This document shows, piece after piece, positions 8,611 through 13,979 of a stretch of 64,000 nt of DNA. The translations under genes were made by a program, and so were the position numbers. The notes beneath the pieces were generated by a model that saw only the letters and a program-made list of their open reading frames with translations, had not been told where the DNA came from and searched no databases. Source of the stretch: Streptomyces lydicus (GTDB taxonomy: Bacteria > Actinomycetota > Actinomycetes > Streptomycetales > Streptomycetaceae); contig NZ_CP017157.1 of the NCBI RefSeq assembly GCF_001729485.1, positions 744,001 to 808,000 of the forward strand, given 5' to 3'. Position 1 is the first letter of the stretch. Each line of letters opens with the position of its first letter.

Positions 8611-9317
8611 CTGACAGCCTCTTTCCACTCTTGCTACGAACGGTGCACCAACGATCAGCACCGCAACTTACGGCAGGGCGGGGCGGGGCTGTCCAGTCGT
8701 GCGCCCCGAACCAGTGATCGGCGGGCGCGTCGGTGCGGATCCGGCGAACGGCGTGGGGGCCGTCGAGGCGACGGACAGATGCGGCGGTACCGGTACGAGG
8801 GGCGCGCCTCCCTCGGCGCGCGGCAGATGCCCCGCCACTCGCAGCAGTCTCGCGTGACGGCCGGGCGGAAGCCACTCGATCTTGAAGCATGTTCACCGCC
8901 CTCCCGGCGCCGTCGCCGACGGGCAGCCGCCCGCGGGTAAGCCTCGTACGGACCCGTACGAGGCTCCGCCGGCCAGTGCTGCGGCGGCCACCGCCAGGCC
9001 GGCGGCCAGCATCCGCCGTCTGCCGGACCCGCCCCGGCACCGTCCGCCACCGCTCACCCGAACCGGAGCAAAGTGGGGCACTTCACAGGGTGGGGGAGCG
9101 GGCAGGGGCGGCGCGTGGGCGGCGGGAGGGGCGACGGGGGGACGGGTGTGGGGGTGTGCGGAGAGCATGGGTGGCACCGCCTCGGTGGGGTGGGAATCAA
9201 CCGGCGATCACCACCGTGCCGCAGTTCGCTCCGGCCCGCTCCGGCCTGTGGACGGCCCCGCCGTTGTGGACAACCCGGCCACCCGGGAGAGGGAGGCCGA
9301 GGGGCGGCGGCGTCCCG
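8611..9317. other. 707-bp region without an intact gene; possible gene remnant
   Basis: No complete gene is convincing on either strand. On the minus strand, a 39-residue frame from 9012 to 8893 starts MLAAGLAVAAAALAGG, like a membrane anchor after basic residues (RRR), and then stops. In related actinobacteria I recall a SAF-domain (FlgA/CpaB-like) gene lying between mtnP and mscL, and this may be its decayed remnant. A perfect 11-bp inverted repeat lies at 8941-8964. Confidence 0.45.
8941..8964. repeat. Perfect inverted repeat, 11-bp arms, 2-bp centre
   Basis: GCCTCGTACGG (8941-8951) and its exact complement (8954-8964) flank AC. The CGTACG cores make it nearly a palindrome. It could be a regulator site or hairpin in the region upstream of mscL. 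Confidence 0.6.
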
Positions 9318-10199
9318 CTACGGCAGCTCGATGCCCAGGTCCCGGCCCGCGTGGGCGTCGACGCACGGGCAGTCGCGGGCGGTGGTCCCCGGGAGAGCGG
9401 CGACCGCGTCGAAGAGCACCTCGCGCAGCCGGCCGACGTTCTGCGCGAAGACGTCGAGGACCTCTTCGTGGGAGACGCCGGCACCGGCCTCGGTGCCCGC
9501 GTCCAGGTCGGTGACCAGGGTCAACGAGGTGTAACACAGGCTCAGTTCGCGGGCCAGGACGGCTTCGGGGTGGCCGGTCATGCCGACCACCGACCAGCCC
9601 TGGGCGGCGTGCCAGCGGGATTCGGCGCGGGTCGAGAAACGGGGGCCCTCGATGACGACGAGCGTGCCGCCGTCGACCGGTTCCCAGTCCCGGCCGCGGG
9701 CGGCCGCGACGGCGGCCCGGCGGCCGGCGGGGCAGTAGGGGTCGGCGAAGCTCAGGTGGACGACGTGGGGGACGCGCCCGCTCCGCTCCGTGCCGCCGCC
9801 GTTCCCGGTCGCGTCCGCGGAGGCGGGGCCGGGCAGCGGCTCGCCGTCGAAGTAGGTCTGGACGCGGGCCTTGGTGCGGTCCACGAGCTGGTCGGGGATC
9901 AGCAGGGTGCCGGGGCCGTATTCGGGGCGCAGGCCGCCGACCGCGCAGGGGCCGAGGACCTGGCGCACGCCGAGTGAGCGCAGCGCCCACAGGTTGGCGC
10001 GGTAGTTGATGCGGTGCGGCGGAAGGTGGTGGTCGCGCCCGTGCCGGGGCAGGAAAGCGACCCGGCGGCCGGCGATCTCGCCGAGGAACACCGAGTCGCT
10101 CGGGCGGCCGTAGGGGGTGTCCACCGTGATCTCGGTCACGTCGTCGAGGAAGGAGTAGAAACCCGATCCGCCGATGACGCCTATGTCCGCGTCAGCCAT
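9318..10199 (-). CDS. mtnP: S-methyl-5'-thioadenosine phosphorylase
   Basis: 293 residues from an ATG at 10199 (AAGGTGACC ahead). Hallmarks of the trimeric PNP/MTAP family are present: DIGVIGGSGFYSF at the start, then LPRHGRDHHLPPHRINYRANL (phosphate-site RHG and H), VIEGPRFSTRAES and VGMTGHPEAVLARELSLCY. The enzyme cleaves methylthioadenosine to adenine and methylthioribose-1-phosphate in polyamine and methionine salvage. It acts in the cytosol. Closely related purine nucleoside phosphorylases are an alternative, but the motif set favours MTAP. Confidence 0.92.
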   Translation of the reverse strand: MADADIGVIGGSGFYSFLDDVTEITVDTPYGRPSDSVFLGEIAGRRVAFLPRHGRDHHLPPHRINYRANLWALRSLGVRQVLGPCAVGGLRPEYGPGTLLIPDQLVDRTKARVQTYFDGEPLPGPASADATGNGGGTERSGRVPHVVHLSFADPYCPAGRRAAVAAARGRDWEPVDGGTLVVIEGPRFSTRAESRWHAAQGWSVVGMTGHPEAVLARELSLCYTSLTLVTDLDAGTEAGAGVSHEEVLDVFAQNVGRLREVLFDAVAALPGTTARDCPCVDAHAGRDLGIELP

Positions 10200-10260
10200 G
10201 GCGGTCACCTTAGCGGGGCCGCACGCCACCCGGCCGTGCCGCCCCAGGGCGGACATGCGG

Positions 10261-10291
10261 CGGACCCCGCCGTCAGGGACGGCGGGGTCCG
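10261..10291. terminator. Hairpin terminator after the FmdB/Ruc gene
   Basis: A perfect 14-bp stem (10261-10274 with 10278-10291) with an AGG loop lies between the stop codon of the zinc-ribbon gene and the mtnP start, both on the minus strand. Confidence 0.7.
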
Positions 10292-10322
10292 ATGAAGCCG
10301 GTGGTGCCGTTGGCGCCGGTCG

Positions 10323-10658
10323 TCAGGCCGCGGAGCTGGTGCTCGTCGTGCTGCTCGACGACGACGCCGCCGGGGCGGACGACTTGGTGTCGGAGCTGCT
10401 CGACGAGGAACCCGCGGAGTCCGAGGAGGACGAGCCGCCGGAGGTGGTGGAGCTCTTCGCGGGGCTGCTGCTGGACGACGAACCGCGGCTGTCGTTGCGG
10501 TAGAAGCCGGAGCCCTTGAAGACGATGCCGACCGCGGAGAACACCTTCTTGAGGCGTCCCTGGCAGGCGGGGCACTCGGTGAGCGCGTCGTCGGTGAACT
10601 TCTGCACCGCCTCGAGGCCCTCGCCGCACTCGGTGCACTGGTACTGGTACGTCGGCAC
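10323..10658 (-). CDS. ruc: FmdB-type zinc-ribbon protein, Ruc-like redox-regulated chaperone
   Basis: 111 residues from a GTG at 10658 with AGGAGG ahead. The N-terminus (PTYQYQCTECGEGLE) holds a zinc ribbon with C8, C11, C29 and C32. After residue about 55 the protein is a long Ser-rich, disordered tail ending STSSAA. This architecture matches M. tuberculosis Rv0991c (Ruc), described as a zinc-binding chaperone with an unstructured tail that is activated by oxidation and controlled by HrcA. A near-perfect CIRCE element overlaps its leader here, and it lies near 5-FTHF cyclo-ligase and galU as Rv0991c does. Older annotations call the family a putative regulator (FmdB). Confidence 0.85.
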   Translation of the reverse strand: MPTYQYQCTECGEGLEAVQKFTDDALTECPACQGRLKKVFSAVGIVFKGSGFYRNDSRGSSSSSSPAKSSTTSGGSSSSDSAGSSSSSSDTKSSAPAASSSSSTTSTSSAA

Positions 10659-10669
10659 TTGACTTCCTC

Positions 10670-10696
10670 CTGGCACTCTCACTCGATGAGTGCTAA
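10670..10696 (-). promoter_or_regulatory. CIRCE element (HrcA operator)
   Basis: Read on the minus strand, TTAGCACTC - 9 bases - GAGTGCCAG. The left arm is identical to the CIRCE consensus and the right arm keeps GAGTGC (consensus GAGTGCTAA). It ends within the ribosome-binding region of the zinc-ribbon gene, so HrcA binding would block transcription directly. Heat or protein misfolding should induce the gene. Confidence 0.88.
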
Positions 10697-10804
10697 CGAC
10701 GCTCCATATTGCAGTATTCCCGTGCTTCCGTCCACCGCGACGAGGCCACGGTGACCGACCCCACGTCCGACCCCACGTCCGGCCCGTGCCCGGCAGCGGG
10801 TCCG

Positions 10805-12115
10805 TCAGGCGTTCGTGAGTTCCCGTCCCCGATCCTGTTCCCGCTCCTCGGACGCGGGTCCGGCGGCGGTGACGGCCGCCGAGCCCGCCGGAGCGGACGC
10901 GGCCGCCGGGCGCGGCACCAGGTGGGCGCGGAGCGCCAGCAGCACCACGAAGGCCAGCGCGGTGCCGGCCAGCGGCACCAGGAAGCCGGTGCTCGGTCCG
11001 AAGCGGTCCGCCAGCTGGCCTGCGGAGGTGGCGGCGGCCGCCTGGCCCAGCGCGACCGCGCCGGTCAGCCAGGTGAACGCCTCGGTACGGGCGGCGGCCG
11101 GCACCAGCGACTCGACCAGCGTGTAGCCGGTGATCAGGGCCGGGGCGATGCACAGGCCGACCACCAGGCCGACCGCGCCCAGCAGCGGCACCGCGGAGAG
11201 CGTCCACAGCGGGGTGGTGGCCAGCGCCAGCAGGCCGTAGGCGACCAGCAGCCGGCGCCGCGGGCCGACCTTCCAGGCGACCGCGCCGCAGACGATGCCG
11301 GCGAGCATGTTGCCGCCCGCGAAGATCCCGTAGAGCACGCCGTTGATGCCGGGCTGGCCGATGTGCTGGGTGAACGCCGTCAGCGAGACCTGCATGCCGC
11401 CGAACACGGCGCCGATGCCGAGGAACGCGACGATCAGCACCCGCACGCCGGGCACCGACAGGGCCGAGACCCGCGGTGCGCCACCGGACGCGTCCGTGTG
11501 GACCGGGGGCTGGCTGCGCTTCTGCGAGGCGAACAGCAGGCCGCCGGCCAGCGTCAGCACCGCCTCGGCGACCAGGCCGGCCGCCGGGTGGATGCCGGTG
11601 CACAGCGCCGTCGCCAGGACCGGGCCGACGACGAAGGTGAACTCGTCGGTGACCGACTCGAAGGCGGCGGCCGTCGGCATCAGCGGGCTGCCGCCGAGCC
11701 GGGAGGCCCAGCGGGCCCGCACCATCGGGCCGACCTGCGGGGTCGAGGCGCCCGTGGGGACGGCCACCGCGAGCAGCGCCCACAGGGGGGCGTGCGCGAG
11801 GGCCAGGGTGATCAGCGTGCACACGCCGGCGACGTGCACCAGCACGCCCGGGATCAGCACCGCGCGCTGCCCGAAGCGGTCGGCGAGCTTGCCGCTCTGC
11901 GGGGCGAACAGCGCCATCGAGACACCGGTCGCGGCGGAGACCGCGCCGGCGGTCCCGTAGGAGCCGGTGGTGGACTGGACGAGCAGCACGATGCCGATCG
12001 TCAGCATCGCGAAGGGCTGCCGCGCCAGGAAGCCGGGCAGCAGGAATGTCCATGCACCGGGGGTGCGGAGCAGTCGTCCGTAACCGGGACGGGAATCCTT
12101 GACCGCGGATGCCAC
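10805..12115 (-). CDS. MFS transporter, probable exporter
   Basis: 436 residues with about twelve transmembrane helices. The loop motif after helix 2 reads PQSGKLADRFGQRAV (MFS motif A, G-x-L-D-R-x-G), and a second degenerate copy (AGQLADRFGPSTG) is in the C-terminal half, as in 12-TM major facilitator proteins. The substrate is unknown. The pattern resembles actinobacterial drug/metabolite exporters. The C-terminal 40 residues are Ala/Arg-rich and probably disordered. The gene ends 146 bp before the zinc-ribbon gene, which has its own promoter. Confidence 0.87.
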   Translation of the reverse strand: MASAVKDSRPGYGRLLRTPGAWTFLLPGFLARQPFAMLTIGIVLLVQSTTGSYGTAGAVSAATGVSMALFAPQSGKLADRFGQRAVLIPGVLVHVAGVCTLITLALAHAPLWALLAVAVPTGASTPQVGPMVRARWASRLGGSPLMPTAAAFESVTDEFTFVVGPVLATALCTGIHPAAGLVAEAVLTLAGGLLFASQKRSQPPVHTDASGGAPRVSALSVPGVRVLIVAFLGIGAVFGGMQVSLTAFTQHIGQPGINGVLYGIFAGGNMLAGIVCGAVAWKVGPRRRLLVAYGLLALATTPLWTLSAVPLLGAVGLVVGLCIAPALITGYTLVESLVPAAARTEAFTWLTGAVALGQAAAATSAGQLADRFGPSTGFLVPLAGTALAFVVLLALRAHLVPRPAAASAPAGSAAVTAAGPASEEREQDRGRELTNA

Positions 12116-12452
12116 GGCCGGGCCTTTCTGCCGCCTGGTAGCGCGCCGCCCGCAAGGTCGTCACGGGTACGCGCCGAGAGCTGTCCTCTCGCGCAGGACC
12201 GAGTGATACCGCGTGGTCCGCACCCCGAGAGGTGGCTGCGTGTGGCAGGGGACCGCGGCCGCCGAGCGGTCGCGCCAGCTCTGCATCAGGCAGAGTTGGT
12301 TCGTAGATGTTCTGTCTTCATACTACAGGTCGCGCCGCGTGAGGCCCTGGGATTAACCAGGGCTTCACGCGGTTTTCCTTGGGATCCGTGGAGATCTTCA
12401 GCACATTTCCGGGTGGCGGCACCCGGTCGTCCGTGGTGGGCCCGGCCCGGCC
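12116..12452. other. Intergenic region with a strong hairpin
   Basis: This 337-bp stretch lies between the antiporter stop and the MFS start, both on the minus strand. It has no credible gene. It holds the hairpin at 12337-12370 and a locally AT-rich segment near 12295-12335 (GTTCGTAGATGTTCTGTCTTCATACTAC region) that could carry the MFS promoter. Confidence 0.55.
12337..12370. terminator. Hairpin terminator with T-rich tail
   Basis: A 14-bp stem (12337-12350 with 12357-12370, one G-T pair) and loop GATTAA, followed on the plus strand by GGTTTTCCTT. It sits downstream of the antiporter gene and between same-strand genes, so termination of the antiporter transcript is likely. Confidence 0.65.
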
Positions 12453-13979
12453 TCAGGTCCGGCCGCCCCGGTGCGGGTGCCGCCGCACGGCGCCGCCGGT
12501 GCCCAGCCAGCCGGCCAGCTTGCCGCCCTGGGAGACCGCCTGCAGTCGCCGCTCGGCCGCGTCGCGCACCGGGTCGGTGGCGACCACCAGCAGTTCGTCG
12601 CCGTGCCGCAGCACCGTCGACGGCGACGGCACGAAGCTGGAGCCGTCCCGGACGACGAGGGTGACCGCGGCACCCGCGGGCATCCGCAGCTCGCCGACCT
12701 CCACGCCGTGCATCCGGGACGACGGCCCGATGGACGTCGACAGCAGATGGCCGCGCAGCCGTTCCAGGGGCGCCGACTCGATGCCCAGGTCCGCGGCCTC
12801 CTCGCCGTCGCCCAGCCGCAGCCGCCTGGCGAGCCAGGGCAGGGTCGGGCCCTGGATGAGGGTGTAGACGACGACCAGGACGAAGACGATGTTGAAGACG
12901 CGTTCGCTGCCGGGTACGTCGCCCACCATCGGGATGGTGGCCAGCACGATGGGGACCGCGCCGCGCAGGCCGGCCCACGACAGCAGGGTCTTCTCCCGCC
13001 AGGGCACCCGGAACGGCAGCAGCGCGGTGAACACCGACGTCGGTCGGGCGACGAGGGTGAGGATCATGCCGATGACCAGCGCCGGCACTATGTCGTCGAG
13101 CAGATTGTGCGGGGTCACCAGCAGACCCAGCAGGACGAACATCCCGATCTGGCCGATCCAGCCGAGGCCCTCGGCGAAGCCGCGGGTGGCCGGCGCGTGC
13201 GGCAACTTGGCGTTGCCGAGGATCACCGCGGCCAGATAGACGGCGAGGAAGCCGGAGCCGTGGGCCAGCGCGCCGGCCGCGTAGGCCGAGACGGCGATGG
13301 CCATGACGGCGATCGGGTAGAGGCCGGAGGCGGGCAGCGCCACGTGCCGCATGCCGTAGGCGCCGAGCCAGCCGATGGCCACGCCGATGGCGGCGCCGAT
13401 CGCGAGTTCCAGGGCGATCTCACCGAGCAGGACGTACCAGTGGTCGACCTGCCGCGGGGCGGAGAAGGCGACGACCAGGATGACCACCGGGGCGTCGTTG
13501 AAGCCGGATTCGGCTTCGAGGACACCCGTCAGGCGCGCGGGCAGCGGCACGCTGCGCAGCACGGAGAAGACCGCCGCGGCGTCCGTGGACGAGACCACGG
13601 CGCCGATCAGCAGCGCCTGCCGCCAGTCGAGTCCGGCCAGGTAGTGCGCGCCGGCCGCGGTGACCCCCACGCTCACCGCGACGCCGACCGTCGAGAGCGC
13701 CGCGGCCTGGGGAAGGGCCGGTTTGATCTCTTTCCATTTGGTGCCCAGCCCGCCCTCGGCGAGGATCACGACCAGCGCGGCATAGCCGAGGAGTTGGGTC
13801 AGTTCGGCGTTGTCGAAGACGACGCCCCCGATGCCGTCCTGCCCCATGGCGATGCCTATCCCCAGGTAGATGAGCAGGCTGGGGAGCCCGCTGCGCGAGG
13901 ACAGCCGTACTGCGGCGACCGCGATGAGCAGTACGAGCGAGCAGAGCAGCAGGAGTTCATTGAGATGGTCGACAGTCAG
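12453..13979 (-). CDS. Potassium/proton antiporter, CPA1/NhaP2 type with C-terminal TrkA-C domain; apparent CTG start
   Basis: 508 residues if started at CTG (13979). About twelve membrane helices include the ion-site motif SSTDAAAVFSVL and ESGFNDAPVVI (Asp pair of CPA antiporters), then LSWAGLRGAVPIVLATIP. The C-terminal 120 residues form a TrkA-C regulatory domain (VGELRMPAGAAVTLVVRDG, then LRHGDELLVVATDP), which in related proteins binds nucleotides. Function: exchange of cytosolic K+ (or Na+) for H+. The conserved first helix (LTVDHLNELLLLCSLVLLIAV) lies upstream of the first ATG. Between that ATG and the in-frame TAA stop further upstream there is no ATG, GTG or TTG, so CTG after AGGAAGGA is the best start. 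Confidence 0.88.
   Translation of the reverse strand: MTVDHLNELLLLCSLVLLIAVAAVRLSSRSGLPSLLIYLGIGIAMGQDGIGGVVFDNAELTQLLGYAALVVILAEGGLGTKWKEIKPALPQAAALSTVGVAVSVGVTAAGAHYLAGLDWRQALLIGAVVSSTDAAAVFSVLRSVPLPARLTGVLEAESGFNDAPVVILVVAFSAPRQVDHWYVLLGEIALELAIGAAIGVAIGWLGAYGMRHVALPASGLYPIAVMAIAVSAYAAGALAHGSGFLAVYLAAVILGNAKLPHAPATRGFAEGLGWIGQIGMFVLLGLLVTPHNLLDDIVPALVIGMILTLVARPTSVFTALLPFRVPWREKTLLSWAGLRGAVPIVLATIPMVGDVPGSERVFNIVFVLVVVYTLIQGPTLPWLARRLRLGDGEEAADLGIESAPLERLRGHLLSTSIGPSSRMHGVEVGELRMPAGAAVTLVVRDGSSFVPSPSTVLRHGDELLVVATDPVRDAAERRLQAVSQGGKLAGWLGTGGAVRRHPHRGGRT

Follow-up and report, generated by a model that had tools for sequence, protein, structure and literature searches.

A probable ruc ortholog of Streptomyces lydicus with a CIRCE operator joined to a sigma-R-type promoter

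A gene filed under the name FmdB in Streptomyces lydicus is very likely the Streptomyces ortholog of Mycobacterium tuberculosis ruc (Rv0991c), as judged from cysteine spacing, sequence identity and synteny. It lies on the reverse strand of a 64,000-nucleotide stretch (positions 744,001 to 808,000 of contig NZ_CP017157.1, assembly GCF_001729485.1), referred to below as the window, whose coordinates are used throughout. The start of the gene is preceded by a CIRCE operator, the predicted binding site of HrcA, which shares bases with the -10 element of a sigma-R/SigH-type promoter. We consider it probable that the gene is under HrcA/sigma-R control and that its product is a redox-switched holdase.

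The product and its relation to Ruc

The 111-residue product scored 68.5 bits with TIGR02605, the zinc ribbon model of the FmdB family (curated cut-off 31.3), and 50.5 bits with PF09723, Zn_ribbon_8 (curated cut-off 34.4); one other NCBIfam model matched, far under its cut-off. Residues 8, 11, 29 and 32 are the only cysteines of the protein, and its tail of 58 residues, 53% of them serine, is Cys-free. The CxxC-x17-CxxC spacing was found in 122 of the 122 rows read from the loci, a sample in which the S. lydicus gene counts four times and whose regular-expression pre-filter permitted 15-20 residues between the Cys pairs. Invariant positions in 38 aligned sequences were M1, P2, Y4, Y6, C8, C11, Q19, L26, C29 and C32, together with G44, F47, G49, G51, F52, Y53 and D56. 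In a predicted structure of low confidence (mean pLDDT 60.6), strands were placed at residues 3-8, 14-18 and 35-39, and the tail was modelled with neither helix nor strand after residue 39, at a pLDDT of about 48-56 in ten-residue blocks. No relative by sequence was found in the PDB at E values up to 1. The four cysteines and the long, Ser-rich, disordered tail had been proposed by the initial annotation; the former are borne out by the sequence and the latter agrees with the model.

Table 1. Features at and around the probable ruc ortholog (window coordinates)
Feature	Position	Strand	Basis
Probable ruc ortholog, FmdB-family zinc-ribbon protein, 111 aa, GTG start	10323..10658	-	TIGR02605, PF09723, Mycobacterium identity
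Codons 1-53, zinc ribbon with C8, C11, C29, C32 to conserved GSGFY	10500..10658	-	alignment, model
Codons 54-111, Ser-rich tail, predicted disordered	10326..10499	-	composition, model
Stop codon of the probable ruc ortholog	10323-10325	-	
Shine-Dalgarno AGGAGG	10666..10671	-	sequence
GC hairpin 3' of the gene, possible terminator	10262..10290	-	stem/loop, folding energy
CIRCE operator (predicted HrcA site), perfect left arm, right arm 7/9	10670..10696	-	motif search, conservation
Sigma-R/SigH-type promoter, GGAAT (10716-10720), N18, GTT (10695-10697)	10695..10720	-	motif, conservation

The cysteines carry the same numbers as those mutated in Ruc (8, 11, 29 and 32), for which a zinc-domain construct ending at residue 49 has been described (PMC7448276). 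Alignment with a relative from Mycobacterium sp. TNTM28 gave 66% identity across 58 amino acids, up to residue 58. Rv0991c itself gave no match in a pattern search of 396 mycobacterial-genus genomes and, since its sequence was not retrieved, the link to Rv0991c runs through the Mycobacterium relative. The likeness to Ruc, already seen by the initial annotation, extends from the cysteines, the zinc ribbon of about 50 residues and the hydrophilic disordered tail to the HrcA site, the overlapping promoter of SigH/SigR-type ECF sigma factors and the proposed chaperone role. Relatives have the ribbon in common but not the tail sequence.

Gene order argues for the same relationship. Among 60 neighbourhood loci, which include the window's own and some cut by contig ends, genes within about 4 kb encoded 5-FTHF cyclo-ligase in 36, MscL in 36, GalU in 25, and MoeA and MtnP in 20 each; the neighbourhood shared with the mycobacterial relatives consists of 5-FTHF cyclo-ligase, galU, moeA and mscL. 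Three loci belong to the mycobacterial family (f4); two of them (L085 and L087) show the order cyclo-ligase, ruc, mscL, and the third (L086) has an inverted ruc gene. On the strand of the S. lydicus gene, an MFS gene lies upstream, and the genes for S-methyl-5'-thioadenosine phosphorylase and MscL lie downstream. Genes for cyclo-ligase, a nucleotidyl transferase, MoeA and a GNAT protein occupy 16.8-21.6 kb of the window, in an order that we take to be that of Rv0992c-Rv0995. Unlike the Ruc locus, the window has the MFS gene and two further genes, by eye those of a Na+/H+ antiporter and a penicillin acylase, between the ruc ortholog and the cyclo-ligase gene. The hairpin at the 3' side, between the gene and that of the phosphorylase, has a 13-bp stem and a 3-nt loop without a T run; the 81-nt stretch 10245-10325 folds at -41.9 kcal/mol, compared with a shuffle mean of -31.35 (z -3.34). 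No Rfam family reached its gathering score in 9000-12500.

The genome contains a second member of the FmdB family (L006:1432-1653, at about 1668 kb), a short paralog of 73 amino acids in which CPxGH replaces the second CxxC, the end is Cys-rich and GGCCGGGCCG-like, and no CIRCE is present. It is 28% identical to the 111-residue protein over 46 residues. A similar short FmdB paralog was seen in four other genomes of the genus.

A zinc ribbon is a generic fold, and the protein might accordingly be controlled by HrcA and sigma-R and yet act as an adaptor or zinc buffer that aids GroE, a protease or the ribosome without binding clients. The short paralog, with the same ribbon and no CIRCE, could be cited in its favour. 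So could the structure search, whose 455 Foldseek matches at E up to 10, none of them below 0.001, were headed by MCM helicase and RNA polymerase chains (no E value < 0.05), which presumably align over their zinc ribbons and represent generic zinc-ribbon proteins. This alternative is nevertheless unlikely in view of the Ruc-like cysteine numbering and of the identity to the mycobacterial relative, which continues up to residue 58. Moreover, oxidised Ruc stops the aggregation of luciferase whereas the oxidised, tail-less zinc domain does not (PMC7448276).

Still less probable, to a degree that makes it hard to entertain, is a function as an FmdB-type transcriptional regulator, the role implied by many database names. 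Nearly all named rows among the 120 relatives listed carry the FmdB label, just as the initial annotation had it (the exceptions are one "zinc ribbon domain-containing" and one hypothetical protein), and names such as "FmdB family transcriptional regulator" occur among them. Yet no DNA-binding domain was found in the 111-residue protein, the zinc ribbon alone passing Pfam and NCBIfam cut-offs, and NCBI itself calls its model "FmdB family zinc ribbon protein". FmdB labels are likewise attached to the mycobacterial orthologs, a group whose member Ruc has been characterised as a chaperone.

The CIRCE operator and the sigma-R-type promoter

On the gene strand the CIRCE reads TTAGCACTC-N9-GAGTGCCAG, with 2 mismatches in 18 positions. 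No other match with 3 mismatches or fewer occurs in the 64 kb, and 100 dinucleotide shuffles of the window yielded none. Its right arm overlaps the Shine-Dalgarno sequence by 2 nt. Both the consensus-identical left arm and the overlap with the leader had been noticed in the initial annotation, whose interval (10323-10696) spans the gene and the CIRCE; the sigma-R site beside the CIRCE is an addition, absent from it. The idea that the mismatch in the right arm (GAGTGCCAG) is forced by the overlapping Shine-Dalgarno was dropped, because class loci with the CIRCE farther from the start often have the same arm.

The whole 8.2-Mb genome holds five such CIRCE sites: groES-groEL and groEL2 are each preceded by two, and the ruc ortholog by one. 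The groE genes were identified by eye from the translations of flanking ORFs. The single copy at ruc is set against two copies each at groES-groEL and groEL2 (537 kb, 7451 kb). In M. tuberculosis, HrcA represses three Hsp60/Hsp10 genes and ruc (PMC7448276), as the initial annotation had stated for Rv0991c. Going by the genes behind the five sites, the predicted HrcA regulon is thus the same gene set as in M. tuberculosis. The Streptomyces HrcA regulon has been described as groES/EL1 and groEL2 only (PMC2687793), and the ruc ortholog is a likely further member. Its assignment to this regulon agrees with the CIRCE near a promoter and with the presence of hrcA in the genome.

The consensus of sigma-R promoters is GGAAT-N18-19-GTT (PMC9205884), and a search of the window with this pattern returned a single exact match, the one in front of the gene, in which the CIRCE left arm begins with the final two T of the -10. 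Genes for sigma-R and its partner RsrA (sigR and rsrA) are both present in the genome, in line with membership of the sigma-R regulon. About 0.37 matches are expected in the window by chance, 31 of 100 shuffles have one, and the genome contains 134 copies as opposed to 13 of the reversed pattern. With 134 copies, the motif by itself is weak evidence and could be a chance occurrence; its place and its conservation are what give it weight. The promoter also fits exactly the SigH consensus GGAAYR-N17-GTT, and Rv0991c is 40.3-fold SigH-dependent (PMC4803200). The SigH and HrcA sites before M. tuberculosis ruc overlap (PMC7448276); the Streptomyces arrangement is set apart from that of Ruc by a CIRCE that has its left arm in common with the -10 and touches the Shine-Dalgarno with its right arm. 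No sigma-70-type promoter was found in 9000-12500, and no GGAA[TC]-N18/19-GTT promoter was found near the other CIRCE sites of the genome. One GGAA[TC] match was seen about 450 nt from a CIRCE (L001), on the opposite strand.

Conservation of the fused element

The fused motif GGAAT-N18/19-GTTAGCACTC was found in 95 of 101 genomes of the genus, S. lydicus included, while a reversed control gave 0. Three of the six genomes without it still hold the gene and the CIRCE: one (L249) keeps both boxes with one extra base, and two (L247 and L248) keep the CIRCE and have lost the -35. The other three assemblies are without such a gene, two showing the short paralog only and one neither. A CIRCE was present in 30 of 30 distinct genus genomes, 29 of which had been fetched by a motif that includes the CIRCE left arm. 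Nine further genus genomes were found by gene instead of by motif, and the seven of these with coordinates all have both the CIRCE and the sigma-R site.

At the level of the class, the gene family occurs in 187 of 197 genomes, 16 of the 187 belonging to Streptomyces. Outside the genus, 89 class loci were considered, made up of the 30 best hits and 59 picked by hand so as to spread over families. In 71 of these 89 the gene is preceded, at a distance of 10-147 nt, by a CIRCE with no more than 4 mismatches, and none was found at this stringency in 1780 mononucleotide-shuffled upstream regions. Across the class the arms are conserved, in contrast to the 9-nt spacer and to the distance from the start, both of which vary. 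A GGAA[TC]-N18/19-GTT promoter near the CIRCE was found in 7 of the 71 CIRCE-bearing loci (shuffle rate 0.25%), among them the Mycobacterium locus L085, where the GTT directly adjoins the CIRCE. With only 7 of 71 outside the genus, the sigma-R promoter is either not universal or has diverged.

The gene lacks a CIRCE in the remaining 18 class loci. Joint loss of CIRCE and hrcA was rejected as a cause, because the genomes of all 18 have an hrcA match. These loci belong to families f5, f25, f26, f29, f32, f33, f36 and f39; since other loci of f26, f29 and f33 keep the CIRCE, the losses look repeated. In one class genus with small genomes (g25), hrcA gave a pair of distinct, weaker matches, as would a gene that has split or diverged.

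Searching named genomes for the fused motif gave at least 119 stretches. Of the 119 listed, 97 precede a ruc gene, all in Streptomyces except for 2 in Kitasatospora, 2 in Streptacidiphilus, 1 in Mangrovactinospora, 6 in Amycolatopsis and 1 in Prauserella. In Amycolatopsis and Prauserella, in rows selected by the motif, the fusion before the ruc gene has different spacers. In the other 22, all from other groups, the motif is followed by a different gene or by no evident one. Judged by eye, the genes behind such fusions of GGAAT-N18/19 with a CIRCE include groEL, hrcA (L141, L213 and L219) and those for Hsp20 (L151, L157 and L203) and ClpB (L209).

The least credible of the alternatives is that one of the two sites, CIRCE or sigma-R motif, is a relic or has arisen by chance and that the gene is regulated in another way: the abundance of the promoter pattern in the genome and the 18 class loci without CIRCE could be cited in its favour, but position and spacing are kept in 95 of 101 genus genomes and in all seven picked by gene, and the arms persist across the class while spacer and start distance drift.

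Proposed regulation and function

Taken together, the cis-architecture, its conservation and the orthology lead us to infer that HrcA binds the CIRCE, that the gene responds to both regulators, and that the protein holds zinc, is oxidised and acts as a chaperone. The sigma-R promoter would drive the ruc ortholog, and HrcA bound to the CIRCE, into which the -10 runs, would cover the -10 and the transcription start. Given this geometry, occlusion of sigma-R polymerase would be the simplest reading of repression. Thiol oxidation would free sigma-R from RsrA. HrcA activity depends on GroE in other bacteria; unfolded protein that occupies GroE would leave HrcA no longer maintained, and the gene would be released and induced. 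In the protein, the zinc-holding cysteines would form disulphides on oxidation, presumably with loss of the zinc, a step assumed by analogy with Hsp33. The cysteines of Ruc hold one zinc and form disulphides when oxidised (PMC7448276). Zinc ribbon and disordered Ser-rich tail would then hold unfolded proteins for DnaK/DnaJ, like oxidised Ruc in vitro, from which the putative chaperone action is carried over. Hsp33 (HslO) uses four zinc cysteines as a redox switch along with a disordered client-binding part; the comparison is one of analogy only. Hsp33 (PF01430) has no match to the 111-residue protein nor anywhere in the genome.

It seems conceivable, though doubtful, that the fused element serves as a coincidence detector, giving full ruc expression only when thiol oxidation and folding overload occur together, and that Ruc is a substitute for Hsp33 in a lineage that lacks it. 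The strongest hint in the sequence is the sharing of bases between -10 and operator in 95 of 101 Streptomyces genomes, together with the fusion, differently spaced, before the gene in Amycolatopsis and Prauserella. An M. tuberculosis hrcA mutant has abundant Ruc even at 37 C, and heat raises the level further (PMC7448276), which points to additive control in that organism and argues against strict coincidence control there. The M. tuberculosis ruc mutant had no strong virulence defect, and resistance to several oxidants in vitro did not depend on ruc (PMC7448276).

The initial annotation held that in streptomycetes the gene is not known to be treated as a heat-shock chaperone. Among the open-licence titles listed, none presents an FmdB protein of Streptomyces in that role. 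The family had already been described across Actinobacteria: Ruc proteins were reported in 73.84% of 497 Actinobacteria, with the speculation that they stand in for Hsp33 there (PMC7448276). The chaperone idea is therefore an extension. The words Streptomyces and FmdB do not occur in the main text of PMC7448276. In the open-licence literature, no paper was found that joins FmdB with SigR or with HrcA, and none for SCO3187 (a tentative locus tag, which may be wrong); the gene is not named in the available portions of PMC3224704, PMC5472188, PMC9205884, PMC2375139, PMC10012870 and PMC4921905. What is added here is the predicted dual sigma-R/HrcA control and its conservation; a published list of 108 SigR ChIP targets (mentioned in PMC4921905) may or may not include the gene.

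A gene present in nearly every Streptomyces genome examined and filed under FmdB gains a concrete proposed role, that of a redox-switched holdase controlled by heat shock and disulphide stress in combination. The model species Streptomyces coelicolor is harmless and genetically tractable and its hrcA and sigR systems have been studied, so that the Ruc mechanism, and a possible replacement of Hsp33 by Ruc in Actinobacteria, would be testable outside a pathogen.
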